Shown here piece after piece: positions 5,161-38,506 of a DNA stretch of 64,000 nt. Source of the DNA: Bacillota bacterium (GTDB lineage: Bacteria > Bacillota > UBA5301); the NCBI GenBank assembly GCA_017656135.1, contig JACDOJ010000002.1:1-64000 (forward strand), read 5' to 3'. Every line of letters starts with the position of its first letter. The first letter of the stretch is position 1. Position numbers and translations under genes: made by a program. A model generated the notes under the pieces. That model ran no database searches and had not been told where the DNA came from. It saw nothing but the letters and a program-made list of their open reading frames with translations.

Positions 5161-5397
5161 TTTCTGAAGTTTTCCTTTCCGGGAAACCCTGGAACAAGCA
5201 TGAGGATTAAATCTTGCTGTAAGTATATTAATCTTTTTCAGAATAATCATTGTAAAGAGAGGTTTTCGTAGTCAATTTGTAGCCTGGTGGCAGCACTCAT
5301 GAGATCATGAAAAGTGTTGGTGCAGGTATAAAAATTATTGAAGTTATAGAGGAATCTTGCGCTTGAGTTATAATAAATAATCAAAACCACATAACTT

Positions 5398-5484
5398 ACG
5401 CGCTAGGGGAGCCTTTTGGCTGAGAAAGAGGTAAGCTCTGACCCTTTGAACCTGCTCAGGTTAGTACCTGCGGAGGGAAGCTGC
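5398..5484 (+). promoter_or_regulatory. TPP riboswitch (THI element)
   Basis: Contains the conserved blocks GGGGAGCC, GGCTGAGA, GACCCTTTGAACCTG and CAGGTTAGTACCTGCGGAGG in the right order and spacing for the thiamine pyrophosphate aptamer. A -10 TATAAT at 5369-5374 lies about 30 nt upstream; I see no good -35. An intrinsic terminator follows before thiT, so excess TPP should stop transcription of the transporter and kinase genes. Confidence 0.95.
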
Positions 5485-5508
5485 TTTTTCTTAGACCTTC
5501 CTTTGCAG

Positions 5509-21298: not shown

Positions 21299-21510
21299 GT
21301 GAGCCAAATAAGTATTAAATAGCAGCCCTACAGTGTTCGTGGTGAAGCTGATATGTGTTGTGAACCAACACTCAACGCTAGGGAGCCTGGACTCCGGTTG
21401 TGGAAGAAAAGCCGCCCCGGGAGCGGACTTCGGAAGCAGTCGGGAGGGCACCCACCTGGATACCAGGTTCAGCAACGACTCAGCTGTTAACGGCATTTGT
21501 GGGGCTCACG
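21299..21510 (+). ncRNA. ssrS: 6S RNA
   Basis: About 210 nt without an ORF between aspS and tcdA, the same place as 6S-1 (bsrA) in Bacillus subtilis. The ends pair as a long closing stem (GTGAGCC 21299-21305 with GGCTCAC 21503-21509), its own promoter lies just upstream and its own terminator just downstream. 6S RNA mimics an open promoter and sequesters sigma-A RNA polymerase. The identification rests on locus, size, closing stem and transcription signals; I could not fold the central bubble fully by eye. Confidence 0.8.
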
Positions 21511-28146: not shown

Positions 28147-30792
28147 ATGCATAGGCTGTCAGGCAACGAGATCCGGGAGAAATTCCTCGAGTTTTTTGAA
28201 AGCAAAGGTCACCTTAGGTTGCCAGGTGCTTCTCTGATTCCCAAAAACGATCCTACTCTGCTCCTCACCGGAGCCGGGATGGTTCCCTTCAAACCCTATT
28301 TTCTAGGTCAGGAGAAACCCCCGAGAACCCGCATCACCACTTGCCAACCTTGCATTAGGACTCCTGATATTGACCGGGTAGGGTACACCGACCGGCACGG
28401 GACCTTCTTTGAGATGCTGGGTAACTTCTCCTTCGGAGACTACTTCAAATCTGAGGCCATCGCTTGGGCCTGGGAGTTTGTGACCCAGGTTTTTGGGCTA
28501 CCGGAAGATCGGCTGTGGGTGAGCGTCTATGAGAAAGACGATGAGGCCGCAGGGATCTGGCACGAAGAAGTAGGAGTTCCCAAAGAGCGCATCGTCCGCT
28601 TGGGGAAAGATGATAACTTCTGGGAAATCGGGGTCGGACCTTGTGGCCCTTGTTCTGAGATTCACCTGGATCGCGGGCCTGAGCACGGCTGCGGCCGTCC
28701 GGACTGTTCCCCTGGCTGCGACTGTGACCGGTTCATGGAAATCTGGAACCTGGTCTTCATCCAGTTCCGCCGAGATGAAGAAGGCAACTACCACGAACTG
28801 GAGAGCAAAAACATCGATACCGGCATGGGTTTGGAGCGGGCAGCCGTCATCCTCCAGGGCGTAAACAACATTTTCGAAACCGACTTGGTGAAACCGATCC
28901 TGGATAAGGTGGCGGAGCTAGCCGACACCAGCTACGGGGCGGATCCGAAGAAAGATGTTTCCCTGCGGGTCATCACAGACCACGTCCGGGGGATCACCTT
29001 TATGGTCAAGGACGGCATCGTTCCCAGCAATGAGGGAAGGGGCTATGTCCTGCGCCGTTTGTTGCGCCGGGCGGTGCGCCACGGGCGTCTCCTTCAGATC
29101 CAGCTCCCCTTCTTGGCCGAGGTGGTGGAGACGGTGGTCGCTCAGATGGGCCAGGCTTACCCGGACCTGGTGGAACGTAAGGACTACATCTTAAATGTGA
29201 TCTCTCAGGAAGAAGAGAGGTTCCGCCAGACCCTGGACCAGGGTGTGGAGCTTTTAGAGAAAACCTTGGCGGAGTTGAAGTCTAAGGGAAAAGAGGTGCT
29301 GCCGGGGTTTTATGCCTTCCGGCTCTACGATACCTACGGGTTCCCCTTTGAGCTCACCAAGGAGATCGCCGGTGAGGCCGGCTTCAACGTGGATGAAGAC
29401 GGTTTCCACCAGGCCATGGACCAGCAGCGCCAGCGTGCCCGGGAGGCCAGAGGCGACAGCGGCTACGTGGACCTGGAGGAACAGTTCTACACTGACTTGG
29501 CCAAAGAACGGAACCTGCGCTCGAAGTTTGTCGGTTACGACCAAACTACGGCCACTGCCGCCATCACTGCCTTGGTTAAGGACGGCAAGCTCGTAGACAG
29601 CCTCAGTGAAGGTGAAGAAGGACAGGTTGTCTTGGATGTCACCCCCTTCTACGCCGAGAGCGGTGGACAGGTGGCTGACACCGGGAAGATTACCGGAGAA
29701 AACGGCGAACTGGCGGTGACCGATGTCAAACGGGTTGGTGGCAGCCTCATTGCTCACACCGGAAAGGTGAAGAGGGGGCAGCTGGCCACAGGGGATAAGG
29801 TGGAGGCTGAGGTTGCAGCGGCCATCCGGCTGGATACCGCCCGCAATCACACCGCCACCCACCTCTTGCACAAAGCCCTGCGCTCCCTCTTAGGTGAACA
29901 TGCCACTCAGGCCGGTTCGCTAGTGGCCCCCGAGTACCTGCGTTTTGACTTCCAACACTATGCCGCTCTCACCCCTGAACAGCTGGCCGAAGTGGAGGAG
30001 AGGGTGAACGCTGAGATCCTGGCGAACCACCCGGTGACCACAGAAGTCACCTCTTATCAAGAAGCAGTGGATAAAGGGGCCATGGCTCTCTTTGGCGAAA
30101 AGTACGGGGATCGGGTCCGGGTGGTGCAGGTCGGCTCCTACTCTACCGAGCTCTGTGGGGGCACCCACGTCTGCAGTACCGGACAGATTGGCCTCTTCAA
30201 GATCATTTCCGAGAGCGGGGTGGCAGCTGGCACCCGCCGGATTGAGGCTCTCACCGGCCGCCATGCCCTCCGGTGGTTAAATGAACGCAACCGGCTGTTG
30301 GAAGGGGTGGCCTCTCAGCTTAAGGTCAACCCGGAACAGGTCCAAAGTAAAGTCGCTCGCTTAGTGGAGAATTTGAAATCCGCCGAGAAGGAGCTGAAGA
30401 ACCTCAAACACCAACTAGCTCAGGAGGAGCTGGATAACCCCGCTGAGCTCGCCCAGGATGTGCAAGGGGTAAAGCTCTTAGCCAGGCGGATCGATGATTT
30501 GGATGTGCCTGGCATGCGCAACCTCGTGGACGAACTCCGGGCCAAGCTCGGTAGCGGCGTGGTGGTTCTGGGCAGCGCTGCCGGGGGCAAAGTTGTGCTG
30601 GTCGCCGGCGCCACCAAGGACGTAGTGGAAAATGGCATCCACGCCGGAAAACTGGTGGGAGCCCTGGCCAAGCTGGTCGGGGGCGGCGGTGGTGGCCGTC
30701 CGGATATGGCCCAAGCCGGAGGTAAGGATCCGGCCAAACTTGATGAAGCTTTGGCCAGTGCTGCACAGGTCCTAGCGGAACAGTTGTCCTAA
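28147..30792 (+). CDS. alaS: Alanyl-tRNA synthetase
   Basis: 881 residues, full bacterial length. Class II core ('FFESKGHLRLPGASLIP', 'HTFFEMLGNFSFGDYF'-type motif 2, 'GMGLERAAVILQG'), the editing domain with zinc ligands in 'NHTATHLLHKAL' (near 567) and 'LCGGTHVCSTGQIGLF' (near 670), and a C-terminal DHHA1-type domain with a glycine-rich 'GGGGGGRPDMAQAGGKDP' segment. AGCACGGAGGG precedes ATG. Unlike many Firmicutes alaS genes it lacks a T-box, which is interesting given the alanine-type T-boxes at 34.1-34.6 kb. Confidence 0.98.
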   Translation: MHRLSGNEIREKFLEFFESKGHLRLPGASLIPKNDPTLLLTGAGMVPFKPYFLGQEKPPRTRITTCQPCIRTPDIDRVGYTDRHGTFFEMLGNFSFGDYFKSEAIAWAWEFVTQVFGLPEDRLWVSVYEKDDEAAGIWHEEVGVPKERIVRLGKDDNFWEIGVGPCGPCSEIHLDRGPEHGCGRPDCSPGCDCDRFMEIWNLVFIQFRRDEEGNYHELESKNIDTGMGLERAAVILQGVNNIFETDLVKPILDKVAELADTSYGADPKKDVSLRVITDHVRGITFMVKDGIVPSNEGRGYVLRRLLRRAVRHGRLLQIQLPFLAEVVETVVAQMGQAYPDLVERKDYILNVISQEEERFRQTLDQGVELLEKTLAELKSKGKEVLPGFYAFRLYDTYGFPFELTKEIAGEAGFNVDEDGFHQAMDQQRQRAREARGDSGYVDLEEQFYTDLAKERNLRSKFVGYDQTTATAAITALVKDGKLVDSLSEGEEGQVVLDVTPFYAESGGQVADTGKITGENGELAVTDVKRVGGSLIAHTGKVKRGQLATGDKVEAEVAAAIRLDTARNHTATHLLHKALRSLLGEHATQAGSLVAPEYLRFDFQHYAALTPEQLAEVEERVNAEILANHPVTTEVTSYQEAVDKGAMALFGEKYGDRVRVVQVGSYSTELCGGTHVCSTGQIGLFKIISESGVAAGTRRIEALTGRHALRWLNERNRLLEGVASQLKVNPEQVQSKVARLVENLKSAEKELKNLKHQLAQEELDNPAELAQDVQGVKLLARRIDDLDVPGMRNLVDELRAKLGSGVVVLGSAAGGKVVLVAGATKDVVENGIHAGKLVGALAKLVGGGGGGRPDMAQAGGKDPAKLDEALASAAQVLAEQLS

Positions 30793-34003: not shown

Positions 34004-34032
34004 TTGACAGGAATAGCGCTATATGATATAGT
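34004..34032 (+). promoter_or_regulatory. Promoter of the tandem T-box leader
   Basis: Consensus TTGACA (34004-34009), 17-bp spacer, TATAGT (34027-34032); transcription should start near 34039, about 30 nt before Stem I of the first T-box. Confidence 0.8.
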
Positions 34033-34067
34033 ATCACCTAAAATAAAAGTAAATCTTAATATAAATG

Positions 34068-34329
34068 GCGATGACAGGGCGAAGGGAAAAATGCTTTGCT
34101 TAAAGAGAGCCGGGTATGGTGGGAACCGGTACAGGTATTTTCCCAAGCCACCCTGGAGCTGGAGGCGAAAGGATCTATCCCCAAGTCTCCCGGCCGGTGA
34201 AAATCCGGGAGCGTCCGTTAACGCGCCGAACTGGAAGATGCCAGTTCTTGAGGCCGAAAGCCGCGAGGTGCCGGTGAAGAGGGTGGTAACGCGAGTCTCC
34301 TCGCCCCTTGTAGGGTGAGGAGTTTTTTA
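34068..34329 (+). promoter_or_regulatory. T-box riboswitch 1 (specifier GCC, alanine)
   Basis: Stem I: GA-motif GATGA (34070-34074), CAGGG (34075-34079) pairing CCCTG (34151-34155), specifier loop CGAA opposite AAGCCA (34145-34150), GGGAAAA (34084-34090) pairing TTTTCCC (34138-34144), then the AGAGAG bulge and GGTGGGAACC distal loop. The specifier is read as GCC (34147-34149), flanked by A, which would pair with tRNA-Ala(GGC). T-box sequence AGGGTGGTAACGCG (34280-34293) deviates slightly from ACCGCG; its TGGT would pair with an ACCA acceptor end. Terminator CTCCTCGCCC / GGGTGAGGAG (34297-34322) plus T6. Confidence 0.85.
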
Positions 34330-34353
34330 TTTCCAGAATATACTTAGACGGGC

Positions 34354-34589
34354 TATGAAGGGACTAAATCAACGGCAGGGATCCCAGAGAGGCAGCGGCA
34401 GGTGTGAGCTGCCATCCCCCCGGGTGATGCGCCATCCCGGAGCCTTGGGCGATGAGTCCACGGTGGGCACCGTTACCGCCTGCACGGCTAAGCCGTCGCG
34501 AGCGACCGGAACCAAAACGGTAAGCAGAGTGGTACCGCGGGAAGCACCTCGTCTCTGTAACAGGAGACCGAGGTGCTTATTTTTTTTAA
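34354..34589 (+). promoter_or_regulatory. T-box riboswitch 2 (specifier GCC, alanine), tandem copy
   Basis: Second complete leader 25 nt after the first. Stem I: TATGA (34354-34358), GGGA (34360-34363) pairing TCCC (34435-34438), specifier loop CTAA opposite GCGCCA, ATCA (34368-34371) pairing TGAT (34425-34428), CGG/CCG and GGGAT/ATCCC above, then AGAGAGG and the distal loop. Specifier GCC (34431-34433) followed by A, the same as copy 1. T-box GAGTGGTACCGCGGG (34527-34541). Terminator AAGCACCTC-GTCTC / GAGAC-C-GAGGTGCTT (34542-34578) with T8. Sequence is otherwise unlike copy 1, so this is not a recent duplication. Confidence 0.85.
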
Positions 34590-34603
34590 TGGAGGTATAT
34601 GTT

Positions 34604-35839
34604 ATGATCAACTATCAGGACTTTTTTGCTGAACGGGCCCAGCTCATGCAGGCTTCTGATATCAGGGAAGCTTTTAAACTAACAGAGAATGCGGACATAA
34701 TCTCTTTTGCCGGAGGGTTCCCCAGCGCTGAATACTTCCCCGTCCAGGAAGTGGAAGAAATTGTTTCCGAGCTATTGGCCTCTTCGCCGGGGATCGCCTT
34801 GCAGTACGGGCCGACAGAGGGGATCGCAGAACTGCGCTGTCAGGTAGCGGAACTCATGAGTAGCAAAGGTGTGAGGTGCAGCGGTGACCAGGTACTCATC
34901 ACCTCAGGGTCCCAGCAGGCCCTGGACCTGATCGGTAGGGTCTTCCTGAATCCAGGCGATCTGGTGCTCATGGAAACTCCGGGATATATAGGAGCTTTGG
35001 GGGCTTTGAAGGCATACCAACCAATCTTCGAAGGTGTCCCCTTGGACGAAGATGGCCTTAGGGTGGATGTATTGGCCCAGCGCCTGGAGGAGTTGGCAAG
35101 TGAAGGGAAGTCGCCGAAGTTGTTGTACACCGTTGCCACTTTTCACAATCCCACAGGGGTGACGATGAGCATGGAACGGAGACGGCACCTAGTCCGGCTG
35201 GCGGAGAAATACCGTTTTCTGATAGTCGAGGATAACCCCTATGAAGAAATCTTCTTTGAGGGGGAACCGGTCTCGTCGATTAAGTCGCTGGATACCAGTG
35301 GTTTAGTAATATACTTGGGTTCTTTTTCCAAAATCTTTCTGCCTGGTTTGCGAGTAGGCTGGGTGACAGCGGAACGATCTATGGTCGAGAAATTAGCTAT
35401 AGCCAAGCAATCCATGGACCTATGTGGGAGCACTTTGGGACAGAAAATTGTTTCTACTGCAATCAAGCGGGGTTTTTTCTCTCGCCACATTCCGGCACTC
35501 CGGTTTTCCTACCGAAAAAAGAGGGACGTCATGCTGACATCTCTGGAAAGGTTTGCTCCGGAAGGAGTGGTGTGGACCCGGCCGCAGGGAGGTTTCTTCG
35601 TTTGGTTGACTCTGCCTGAAAGGATGGATGCCAAGGTCATTCTTTCAGAGGCAATCCATAAAAAGGTAGCCTACGTCTGCGGCAGTGGTTTCCATTTGGA
35701 CGGTGGAGGCCACAACACTATCCGCCTAGCCTTTAGCCAGAACACTGAGGAACAGATAAGGGAAGGAGTCCGCCGCCTGTGTCTGGTATTGAAGGAAAAC
35801 CTAGGCGGCAGAGAAGTAGGGGTTGCCCGTGCAGTGTAA
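34604..35839 (+). CDS. PLP-dependent aminotransferase, class I/II (LysN-like), T-box regulated
   Basis: 411 residues from ATG 34604 with GGAGGT ahead; the frame is open further upstream to 34355, but that part is T-box leader. Fold-type I aminotransferase: 'FAGGFPSAEYFPVQEV', 'YGPTEGIAELR', 'TSGSQQALDLIGRVFLNPGD', 'HNPTGVTMS', 'VEDNPYEEIFFEG', PLP-lysine in 'LGSFSKIFLPGLRVGW', and 'RPQGGFFVW'. This is the group containing 2-aminoadipate/branched-chain and MocR-related transaminases. Two leaders reading tRNA-Ala suggest it makes alanine from pyruvate; that is inference from the regulation, not from the protein itself. Confidence 0.9.
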   Translation: MINYQDFFAERAQLMQASDIREAFKLTENADIISFAGGFPSAEYFPVQEVEEIVSELLASSPGIALQYGPTEGIAELRCQVAELMSSKGVRCSGDQVLITSGSQQALDLIGRVFLNPGDLVLMETPGYIGALGALKAYQPIFEGVPLDEDGLRVDVLAQRLEELASEGKSPKLLYTVATFHNPTGVTMSMERRRHLVRLAEKYRFLIVEDNPYEEIFFEGEPVSSIKSLDTSGLVIYLGSFSKIFLPGLRVGWVTAERSMVEKLAIAKQSMDLCGSTLGQKIVSTAIKRGFFSRHIPALRFSYRKKRDVMLTSLERFAPEGVVWTRPQGGFFVWLTLPERMDAKVILSEAIHKKVAYVCGSGFHLDGGGHNTIRLAFSQNTEEQIREGVRRLCLVLKENLGGREVGVARAV

Positions 35840-36007: not shown

Positions 36008-36778
36008 CTATAGATTGAGGCGGACTAACTCCAGATCTCCTTTGACGGCCAGGCGGTCCTCCTTGATGGCTAGGGCGCCGGTGACGCCCGGGATTGTTAC
36101 GGCCCATTCTACGGCTGGCTGCAGGTCACACGTCGCCAGGACCCGGTTTCCCATCGCGGTGGCGACGGCATCGGCCAGGGCTGGGTTGCGCGCCACAACC
36201 ATAGCTGTGTCGGCAGTCCCGAAACTGAGGGAAGGCCCGACAGTGCCTGCCGAGGTGCAGACCCCGGCAGGCGTCTGGCAGGGACGCAGTTTGATCCCCA
36301 GCCGCCCGGAAAACGGAGATTCTCCTGCAAAAATAGCGATGACGCGGGGTTCGGTAGAGGCGATGTAAATGTCTCCGCCGTTTTCGACGATGACTTCGCT
36401 GGAATACGCCTTTAATTCCTCCCCGGTCTGCCAGGCGATGGCACCGGCCACCGCAGCCATGGGTCCAACGCCGGCCAGTTGGGCGGCTTGGGCCATGAGT
36501 TTTGCGATCCATGGCGACCAATCGGGGATAACCAGGGGTTCCAGGGCCCGCTGGAAAGAAGGCTGCTTTAATAAGAAAGTTTCCAGGGAAAGGCGGAGCT
36601 TTTTAACGCTTGCCTCAGTCAGGTGGCGTAGGCCCTCTACCTCATGAGGGTCGGCTTTTATCCTTACCAGCAGATCGGTTTCCTTGACTGTCACCGTGAA
36701 GCTGGCCAGACACCCGTCGTCTTTGGTCCAGGCCCGGTAATACCGGTCAATGTAGGATTGAGGACGTGTAATAGCCAT
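36008..36778 (-). CDS. UPF0280 (ApbE-like) protein of the homocysteine operon
   Basis: 256 residues from ATG 36778 (GGAGACATTCTG upstream; the longer ORF start at 36841 has no ribosome site). Motifs 'GVGPMAAVAGAIAW', 'VIVENGGDIYIAS', 'GVCTSAGTVGPSLSFGTADTAMV' mark the UPF0280/COG2122 family, structurally related to ApbE flavin transferases. COG2122 has been linked genetically with DUF39 and NIL-ferredoxin proteins in homocysteine formation in sulfate reducers; the three genes are together here. Its start overlaps the NIL-ferredoxin stop by one base (TGATG). Confidence 0.88.
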   Translation of the reverse strand: MAITRPQSYIDRYYRAWTKDDGCLASFTVTVKETDLLVRIKADPHEVEGLRHLTEASVKKLRLSLETFLLKQPSFQRALEPLVIPDWSPWIAKLMAQAAQLAGVGPMAAVAGAIAWQTGEELKAYSSEVIVENGGDIYIASTEPRVIAIFAGESPFSGRLGIKLRPCQTPAGVCTSAGTVGPSLSFGTADTAMVVARNPALADAVATAMGNRVLATCDLQPAVEWAVTIPGVTGALAIKEDRLAVKGDLELVRLNL

Positions 36779-37188
36779 CAGAATGTCTCCTTCAATATAC
36801 CCAAGGGGCAGGCGGTAGTGCAAAGCCCGCATATGATGCACTTACTCTGGTCGAAAGAAAGCTCCCAGGAGTCAAGATCGAGGGCCAGCGCCTTTGGGCG
36901 GCAGACTGCGGTACACGCGCCGCAATGGATGCACTCTTTCTCATTCCAGGAGATGGCCCTGGCCAAGGTCTCCACCTGGACTCCCTGGGAACGCAGGAAA
37001 TTAATCCCCTGTTCTACTTGTTCCAAGGAGGAATTGCCAATTTCCAGGATCAACTTTCCTTCTTCATTCGGGGTGATGCGGGCAAAGAGGATGTTGATGA
37101 CGAGGTCGAATTCCTTCACCAGAGAATAGGTGAGGGGTTTTCCCGCAAGGCCAGCGGGGAAAGTGATCAGGACGCGTCTCGTGGCCAT
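36778..37188 (-). CDS. NIL domain-ferredoxin protein
   Basis: 136 residues: an N-terminal NIL domain ('VLITFPAGLAGKPLTYSLVKEF'), the ligand-binding fold seen at the end of methionine ABC ATPases, then two [4Fe-4S] motifs, CIHCGACTAVCRP and CIICGLCTTACPL. It is the MA1822-type partner of the DUF39 protein in reductive transfer of sulfide to aspartate semialdehyde, giving homocysteine. AGGAGGATTA precedes the start, which lies 1 nt from the DUF39 stop. Confidence 0.9.
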   Translation of the reverse strand: MATRRVLITFPAGLAGKPLTYSLVKEFDLVINILFARITPNEEGKLILEIGNSSLEQVEQGINFLRSQGVQVETLARAISWNEKECIHCGACTAVCRPKALALDLDSWELSFDQSKCIICGLCTTACPLGILKETF

Positions 37189-37189
37189 A

Positions 37190-38329
37190 TTAATCCTCCT
37201 TTTCTTCCGGGATGGTTGGCAGTGAGCGGACTGGTTCGGTCAGGGTAAACTCTCCCGACAGGATCCGGTCTTTAAGAACCGATGCTATTTCCCGAGCTTT
37301 AACGATACTGCTCAAGGGAGCAGTAGGAACAGTTTTCCCATTTATGGTGACGGAGCCTGTTCTGAGCTGTGCATATGTCACCTGTCCCAGTACTGGACGG
37401 GACAGCTCCGGTACCCCGTAATCGAATATTTTGGTTACGATGTCTTCGTCCCGCACAGCGAGGTTCAGAGCCATATCCTTGTCAAGGACGGGGATAGGCA
37501 CGCCGATGCCGACATAGAGGGAGACCCCGTAATTATGGAAGAACGCTGCCTTCAGAAAGCGGTGGTCCATTTCTTTGAGGTTACCAATGAGGGCCAAGGT
37601 TCCGGCAGCACCCACGGGAATGCCCCTTTCAGTCCGGGGAGCACCGGGATTATGCTGGGTCCCCTCCCAGGCAACGAAGCCTTCCGCTCCTGCCAAGAAT
37701 ACCTTGGTCCCAATGCCGATGGTCCGATAATAGGGGTCATTTAACAAAGGGCTCAGTTTACCTGATGTGGAGTAGGTGACATTCCCGTACCTGGGCAGCA
37801 GGGAACCCATGTAGGTATGGATTACCCGATCGGATCCGTTGGATGCTGCCCCGTAGTTCTGATAAGCGTTGCGGGGGTTGAATAAGTAGGCTTGGTTTAG
37901 GTCGGACAGGTGAAACCAGGACTCTATTTCTTTTCTGGGGTAACAATCAGTACCTTGGGATGTGGCCTTGAGGCGCACTTTCTCCCCCTTGACCAGAGCT
38001 TCGATTACGAATGCGCCGCCGTAGGTGGGATCAGTTTGCGAGGGTTCGGTGGCGCCGAGGAACACATCCATGGCAGCCAGGCCACCGTATGCGGGAACAT
38101 CGTTTAACGTGACCCGGCTCAGCTTCATCGGTGGGTCGGTGTGTTTGAAGTTGAAAAAGGCACCTGATGAGCACATGGCGCCAAAGGTTGCTGTGGTTAC
38201 CACGTCTACTTTACGGGCGGCGCTATCTACACCCTCCTCATCCACCACCTCGAGAAACTCCTCTTTGGTCAAGACCACTGCTTTACCACGCTTAATCCGG
38301 CTGTTTATCTCCTCAATACTCCTGGCCAT
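37190..38329 (-). CDS. Homocysteine biosynthesis protein (DUF39/HcyBio)
   Basis: 379 residues from ATG 38329 (GGAGGTGCCGT upstream; ATG 38344 rejected). DUF39 family, with 'VVTTATFGAMCSSGAFFNF', 'GGAFVIEALVKGE', 'GTDCYPRKEIE', 'FLAGAEGFVAWEGTQHNP' and 'IPVLDKDMAL'. Members such as MA1821 of Methanosarcina form homocysteine directly from aspartate semialdehyde and sulfide, bypassing O-acetylhomoserine. The conserved cysteines in 'MCSSG' and 'TDCYP' are likely sulfur carriers. First gene of a three-gene operon under a SAM-I riboswitch, which fits a methionine-pathway role. Confidence 0.93.
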   Translation of the reverse strand: MARSIEEINSRIKRGKAVVLTKEEFLEVVDEEGVDSAARKVDVVTTATFGAMCSSGAFFNFKHTDPPMKLSRVTLNDVPAYGGLAAMDVFLGATEPSQTDPTYGGAFVIEALVKGEKVRLKATSQGTDCYPRKEIESWFHLSDLNQAYLFNPRNAYQNYGAASNGSDRVIHTYMGSLLPRYGNVTYSTSGKLSPLLNDPYYRTIGIGTKVFLAGAEGFVAWEGTQHNPGAPRTERGIPVGAAGTLALIGNLKEMDHRFLKAAFFHNYGVSLYVGIGVPIPVLDKDMALNLAVRDEDIVTKIFDYGVPELSRPVLGQVTYAQLRTGSVTINGKTVPTAPLSSIVKAREIASVLKDRILSGEFTLTEPVRSLPTIPEEKED

Positions 38330-38353
38330 ACGGCACCTCCTCAACTTGATACC

Positions 38354-38506
38354 AAAAAGAAAGCACCTTCCTGCAGATACAAAAGGTGCTGGTTAGCTTG
38401 CTTCTCATTTCTCAGGAATCTTCCTGCAGGACTTGGCACCGGTGCACATAGGTGTCGGTTGCCGAGGTTTCATTGGGCCAGTCCCTCCGCCTCTCTCCAT
38501 GAGAAC
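38354..38506 (-). promoter_or_regulatory. SAM-I riboswitch (S-box) with terminator
   Basis: On the minus strand from 38506 to 38402: P1 arms TTCTCAT (38505-38499) and ATGAGAA (38408-38402), with GAGAGAGGCGGAGGGACTGG, CCCAATGAAACCTCGGCAACC-type core, GGTGCCAAGTCCTGCAGG and TTCCTGAGAAATGAG, all S-box signatures. The terminator hairpin AGCACCTT / AAGGTGCT (38390-38383 and 38369-38362) with a U-run (38358-38354) follows. High SAM should switch the homocysteine operon off. Confidence 0.95.

Follow-up and report, generated by a model that had tools for sequence, protein, structure and literature searches.

Here we describe a locus with predicted RNA control in a 64,000-nucleotide stretch of the draft genome of an uncultured Bacillota bacterium (GTDB lineage UBA5301; assembly GCA_017656135.1, contig JACDOJ010000002.1, positions 1 to 64,000 of the forward strand), to which we refer as the window. 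Two complete T-box leaders stand there in series, with one promoter before them and one aminotransferase gene after them (Table 1). The pair had been predicted earlier from the sequence, with leader boundaries that turn out to be correct to within a few bases. The covariance search with the T-box model RF00230, which the original prediction had proposed as a check, matches both leaders over the full length of the model, positions 1-219 being covered in each. The antiterminator and the terminator overlap in each leader, both structures fold, and the UGGN sequence expected of a T-box is present.

The promoter is the one promoter-like site upstream of the aminotransferase gene, where shuffled regions carry a mean of 0.5 sites per region, and the promoter scan of the region found no second site between leader 1 and leader 2. 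Together, the RF00230 matches, the terminators, the antiterminators and the single promoter site bear out the arrangement of two full T-boxes between one promoter and one gene. The whole genome contains 11 T-box matches, the window's two leaders included.

The aminotransferase gene starts with the ATG at 34604, preceded by a ribosome-binding GGAGG at 34591-34595, and its product matches PF00155 with 147.7 bits (gathering score 19.7). A 494-residue open reading frame from 34355 was considered as the true protein and rejected, as it overlaps leader 2, whereas the start at 34604 has the ribosome-binding site.

Table 1. Features of the tandem T-box locus (window coordinates)
Feature	Positions	Strand	Details
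Sigma-70-type promoter	34004-34032	+	TTGACA 34004-34009, 17 nt, TATAGT 34027-34032; 11/12 consensus matches
T-box leader 1, Stem I to terminator	34062-34328	+	RF00230 34062-34311, 71.4 bits, E 2.2e-15
Specifier codon, leader 1	34147-34149	+	GCC (Ala), A next; positional rule
Antiterminator 1	34278-34311	+	T-box UGGU at 34284-34287; folding, covariance model
Terminator 1	34297-34328	+	10-bp stem 34297-34322 and T run; z -4.4 versus shuffles
T-box leader 2, Stem I to terminator	34346-34588	+	RF00230 34346-34559, 73.7 bits, E 5.5e-16
Specifier codon, leader 2	34431-34433	+	GCC (Ala), A next; positional rule
Antiterminator 2	34525-34559	+	T-box UGGU at 34530-34533; folding, covariance model
Terminator 2	34542-34588	+	15-bp stem 34542-34578 and 8 T; z -7.0 versus shuffles
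Fold-type I pyridoxal phosphate aminotransferase, 411 aa, predicted alanine-forming	34604-35839	+	PF00155

Specifier codons of the two leaders

The specifiers were read with a positional rule, in which the three specifier bases are followed by six bases and then by the GAG closing Stem I. The genome's nine other T-boxes all share this spacing of six bases before GAG. For the seven of them with a clear downstream gene, named from the translated gene start, the rule gives the expected codon in 7/7 cases: ATC for ileS, GTC for valS, CTC for leuS, ACC for thrS, TTC for pheS, TGC for a serine acetyltransferase gene and TTC for DAHP synthase. The remaining two are a TAC T-box at a contig end, with no gene to check, and a CTC T-box before an acyl-CoA ligase gene.

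In leader 1 the specifier loop lies between a lower helix AGGG:CCCU with 4/4 pairs and an upper helix of 9 bp. The lower helix of leader 2 is GGGA:UCCC, and an unconstrained fold of its Stem I places GCGCCA within an internal loop. Both specifiers are thus GCC followed by A, as originally proposed, by the positional rule as well as by the helix that fixes the register (see below). The UGGU of both leaders is complementary to the ACCA end of the genome's transfer RNA (tRNA) gene for tRNA-Ala(GGC) and fits the A discriminator of this tRNA; the match to tRNA-Ala that had been suggested for the T-box sequence is found in the genome itself.

Conservation of the leaders in related genomes

The search for orthologues of the aminotransferase covered first 61 related genomes and, after these, 399 from the phylum. 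T-boxes stand at 17 of the 20 nearest genes, the window's own counted. Two of the three others (in G288 and G211) are cut by contig ends, and at the third (G004) no T-box was found; the ten fetched homologues that follow in distance likewise yielded none. Six genomes carry the tandem pair (G000, which is the window's genome, G022, G059, G392, G006 and G331) and eleven a single leader. A single supported clade (100/98) contains all the T-box-bearing aminotransferases, together with a subclade of four that have no T-box and the enzyme of G004.

The comparison of orthologous leaders, another proposed check, gives GCC in all 23 leaders from the 17 genomes. By the strict rule it is 22/23, since the second leader of G331 has no GAG landmark and shows GCC at the equivalent place. 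The four-pair helix below the specifier is complete in 22/23 leaders, with A-U, G-C and C-G swaps, and these compensatory swaps therefore fix the codon register. Hence, the reading of alanine by both leaders is strongly supported by comparative sequence evidence.

On the leader tree, which is poorly resolved, the two leaders are sisters in no genome; recent duplication of the leaders was considered and rejected on these grounds. The resolution of the tree is too poor to tell whether the tandem is the ancestral state, and T-box trees have likewise been called unreliable (PMC2494555). On this tree the tandem leaders are not nearest relatives, yet all of them carry GCC, which supports the earlier view that selection maintains the shared specifier. 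Separately, two relatives contain further T-box matches outside the aminotransferase leaders (L200:3330-3688 and L198:541-848).

Proposed mechanism of alanine control

We suggest that two transcription-terminating T-boxes in series control one gene, the product of which is most probably an alanine-forming aminotransferase, and we put the probability of this reading at about 0.8. Each leader would bind tRNA-Ala(GGC) through base pairs between its GCC specifier and the anticodon. With an uncharged tRNA, pairing of the ACCA end to the UGGU of the antiterminator would let transcription continue. RNA polymerase would have to clear both terminators, so that expression would need two binding events of uncharged tRNA-Ala, and the response to alanine shortage is expected to be steeper than with one leader.

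The enzyme would then form alanine from pyruvate. It is the alanine specifiers that point to this most probable role, because a T-box raises expression on uncharged tRNA, which is useful mainly if the product replenishes the amino acid. The alaS gene of the window (28147-30792) is without a T-box, none of the 11 genome-wide matches lying there, as the original prediction had stated. Five class I aminotransferase-like matches occur in the genome; of the four besides the window's, three look like aspartate and LL-diaminopimelate aminotransferases. The proposed mechanism offers a testable function for a clade of aminotransferases that sequence alone cannot name, and suggests the conserved specifier codon as a means of enzyme annotation.

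Alternative readings

Several observations weigh against the alanine mechanism. The aminotransferase misses the alanine-aminotransferase equivalog PRK08363 of NCBIfam (97.9 bits versus a cut-off of 534) and reaches none of the NCBIfam equivalog cut-offs listed. Its nearest solved structures are broad-specificity or other aminotransferases: the multi-substrate aminotransferase PDB 1wst (E 4e-129) with its homologues 1x0m and 3aow comes first, followed by 2-aminoadipate, kynurenine/2-aminoadipate-type and alanine-glyoxylate aminotransferases. An alanine dehydrogenase (527.8 bits, over the cut-off) is encoded in the genome as another possible source of alanine. As to the RNA, both leaders score below the RF00230 gathering score of 93, the loop-E sequence AGUA is missing from both, and Stem I of leader 1, when folded freely, does not take the shape of a T-box, which is why covariation was used for the codon register.

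The enzyme's lack of an alanine equivalog match, its multi-substrate and other structural neighbors and the alanine dehydrogenase would all be understandable if the leaders read tRNA-Ala while the main reaction is aromatic, 2-aminoadipate, glyoxylate or branched-chain transamination. The alanine link would then be secondary, for example with several amino acids being balanced against pyruvate. We consider this unlikely, as the alanine specifier recurs in every leader of the 17 genomes and as more of an alanine-consuming enzyme during alanine shortage would worsen the shortage. The dehydrogenase does qualify the earlier proposal that alanine supply rather than charging is regulated, which otherwise fits.

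It is also conceivable that one leader alone functions as the switch and that its partner is a relic of a duplication, considering that eleven genomes have a single leader and that both window leaders are under the Rfam cut-off. We find this improbable, more so than the preceding alternative. Specifier, T-box, antiterminator and terminator are intact in both leaders, and the tandem occurs in six genomes with GCC in both members and with no pair that looks recently duplicated. The gathering score, we note, is a threshold set for curation and not a property of the biology. A default whole-window cmscan with RF00230 at the curated cut-off skips both leaders and a permissive search recovers both, and leaders of some orthologues exceed the gathering score (109.5, 104.9, 103.8 and 101.2 bits).

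The AGUA sequence is absent from the specifier loop in 21/23 leaders of the aminotransferase orthologues (L013-L017, L188-L200 and the window) and present in 9/9 other T-boxes of the window's genome. The loop-E motif, AGUA opposite GAA, occurs in most but not all T-boxes (PMC4695836), and since some T-boxes are without it, we did not take it as defining membership. A GCC specifier without AGUA makes these leaders a natural test of how far the motif is needed.

Finally, misreading of one or both specifiers, with a neighbouring triplet as the true codon, is allowed by flanks rich in G and C (in one relative, GGCCCCCCC), but is very improbable and already largely refuted by the fixed spacing, which yields the correct codon for all seven T-boxes of this genome whose downstream gene is clear, and by the compensatory pairs that set the register.

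A tRNA-Ala(GGC) gene inside the leuS T-box leader

ARAGORN finds one tRNA-Ala(GGC) gene in the draft genome, outside the window (G000:C5:20235-20310, equal to L004:1548-1623, minus strand). The gene sits in the leuS T-box leader and has the leader's orientation, with the Stem III region on one side of it and the antiterminator on the other. The enclosing T-box (RF00230 20188-20475, L004:1501-1788) scores 112 bits, over the cut-off, with the specifier CTC. The ARAGORN scans cover the genome's 39 tRNA-model matches; the only other alanine tRNA that they contain is Ala(CGC), and tRNA-Ala(UGC) is absent from them, perhaps lost with the unassembled ribosomal RNA operons.

This embedded arrangement itself is present in many genomes. 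A pattern in which a tRNA T-arm is joined to a T-box within 20-50 bases was run on 399 genomes of the phylum and is found in 67 of them (about 17%), corresponding to 61/356 good genomes and 41/267 genera; the control matches none. Among 30 fetched loci ARAGORN calls tRNA-Ala(GGC) in 29, with no tRNA called in L161; the loci with the embedded tRNA include L004, L152-L160 and L162-L181. A single tRNA-Ala(GGC) pattern match is found in 46/47 genomes matched, and the embedded gene is usually the sole one for this tRNA. Stem I with, nearly always, a CTC specifier context lies upstream of the embedded tRNA, and leuS follows the leader in most loci, an AMP-dependent acyl-CoA ligase gene in L177-L181. 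In the window's genome, a separate CTC T-box without a tRNA (G000:C3:30520-30770) precedes a similar acyl-CoA ligase gene. The RF00230 cut-off is passed over the full length, with the tRNA inside, in 12/20 embedded-tRNA loci tested.

The two flanks of an embedded tRNA pair more stably with each other than with flanks of other genomes (mean -10.0 versus -6.6 kcal/mol), and in general the embedded tRNA seems to cap a linker helix before the antiterminator. In the window's genome the flank pairing is weak, at -4.1 kcal/mol, with 23/100 shuffles as good. When the 5' leader pairs with the 3' RCCA and so lengthens the acceptor stem, one step of RNase P action is inhibited (PMC9433436); here the 5' flank pairs beyond CCA, and the relevance of that case is only suggestive.

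Because the only detected tRNA-Ala(GGC) gene sits in the leuS leader, the ligand of one T-box might be cut from the leader of another. We tentatively propose that the alanine switch is wired to the leucine switch in this way, a predicted coupling that we regard as rather doubtful. If true, processing of the embedded tRNA would affect leuS mRNA, and transcription of the leuS leader would set the supply of tRNA-Ala(GGC). The embedded tRNA-Ala raises a new question, how maturation of a tRNA and control by a T-box go together on a single transcript. The literature searched, outside which most subscription papers lie, yielded no description of a T-box leader that contains a tRNA gene.

Other elements in the window

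An S-adenosylmethionine (SAM) riboswitch (38402-38505, minus strand, 85 bits) lies ahead of minus-strand genes at 37190-38344, 36778-37188 and 36008-36841, which are of 'methanogenesis marker 16' type, ferredoxin-like and UPF0280-like. We take this gene group to resemble a homocysteine synthesis cluster. A 6S RNA (21322-21509, plus strand, 91 bits) and a thiamine pyrophosphate riboswitch (5395-5495, plus strand, 66 bits) are also present.

Comparison with known systems

The aminotransferase resembles the multi-substrate aminotransferases of Thermococcus and Pyrococcus (1wst, 1x0m, 3aow) over its full length. These enzymes, however, are archaeal, and their substrate range is not transferable with confidence. 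The leaders share with transcriptional T-boxes of RF00230 the Stem I with specifier loop, the AGAGA distal motif, UGGU and an antiterminator exclusive with the terminator; they differ in scoring 71-74 bits against the gathering score, and most leaders of this gene differ in being without AGUA.

Like the T-boxes of alaS, the leaders have an alanine specifier and UGGU in the antiterminator bulge. The alaS T-boxes of B. subtilis and C. acetobutylicum use GCU (PMC4695836), and alanine specifiers in TBDB prefer a 3' U (PMC7778990), whereas the window leaders use GCC, a full match only to the anticodon GGC. The gene regulated here is probably biosynthetic, and the genome's own alaS is without a T-box. 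The literature searched, with the same limit on subscription papers, yielded no alanine aminotransferase gene described as having a T-box.

In bacilli, thrZ and trpE are known to have tandem T-boxes (PMC2494555), and such arrangements have been catalogued for several operons (PMC12452182; also in PMC7583486). The main texts of PMC2494555 and PMC12452182 give no alanine case beyond genes related to Ala-tRNA ligase. The window pair is like those of thrZ and trpE in that two or more complete leaders stand in series before one gene, and unlike them in that it is specific for alanine and stands on an aminotransferase gene. The role of a second leader has been called open by reviewers (PMC7583486), and this gene, which has one leader in some genomes and two in others, all with the codon GCC, offers a natural set for asking what it contributes.
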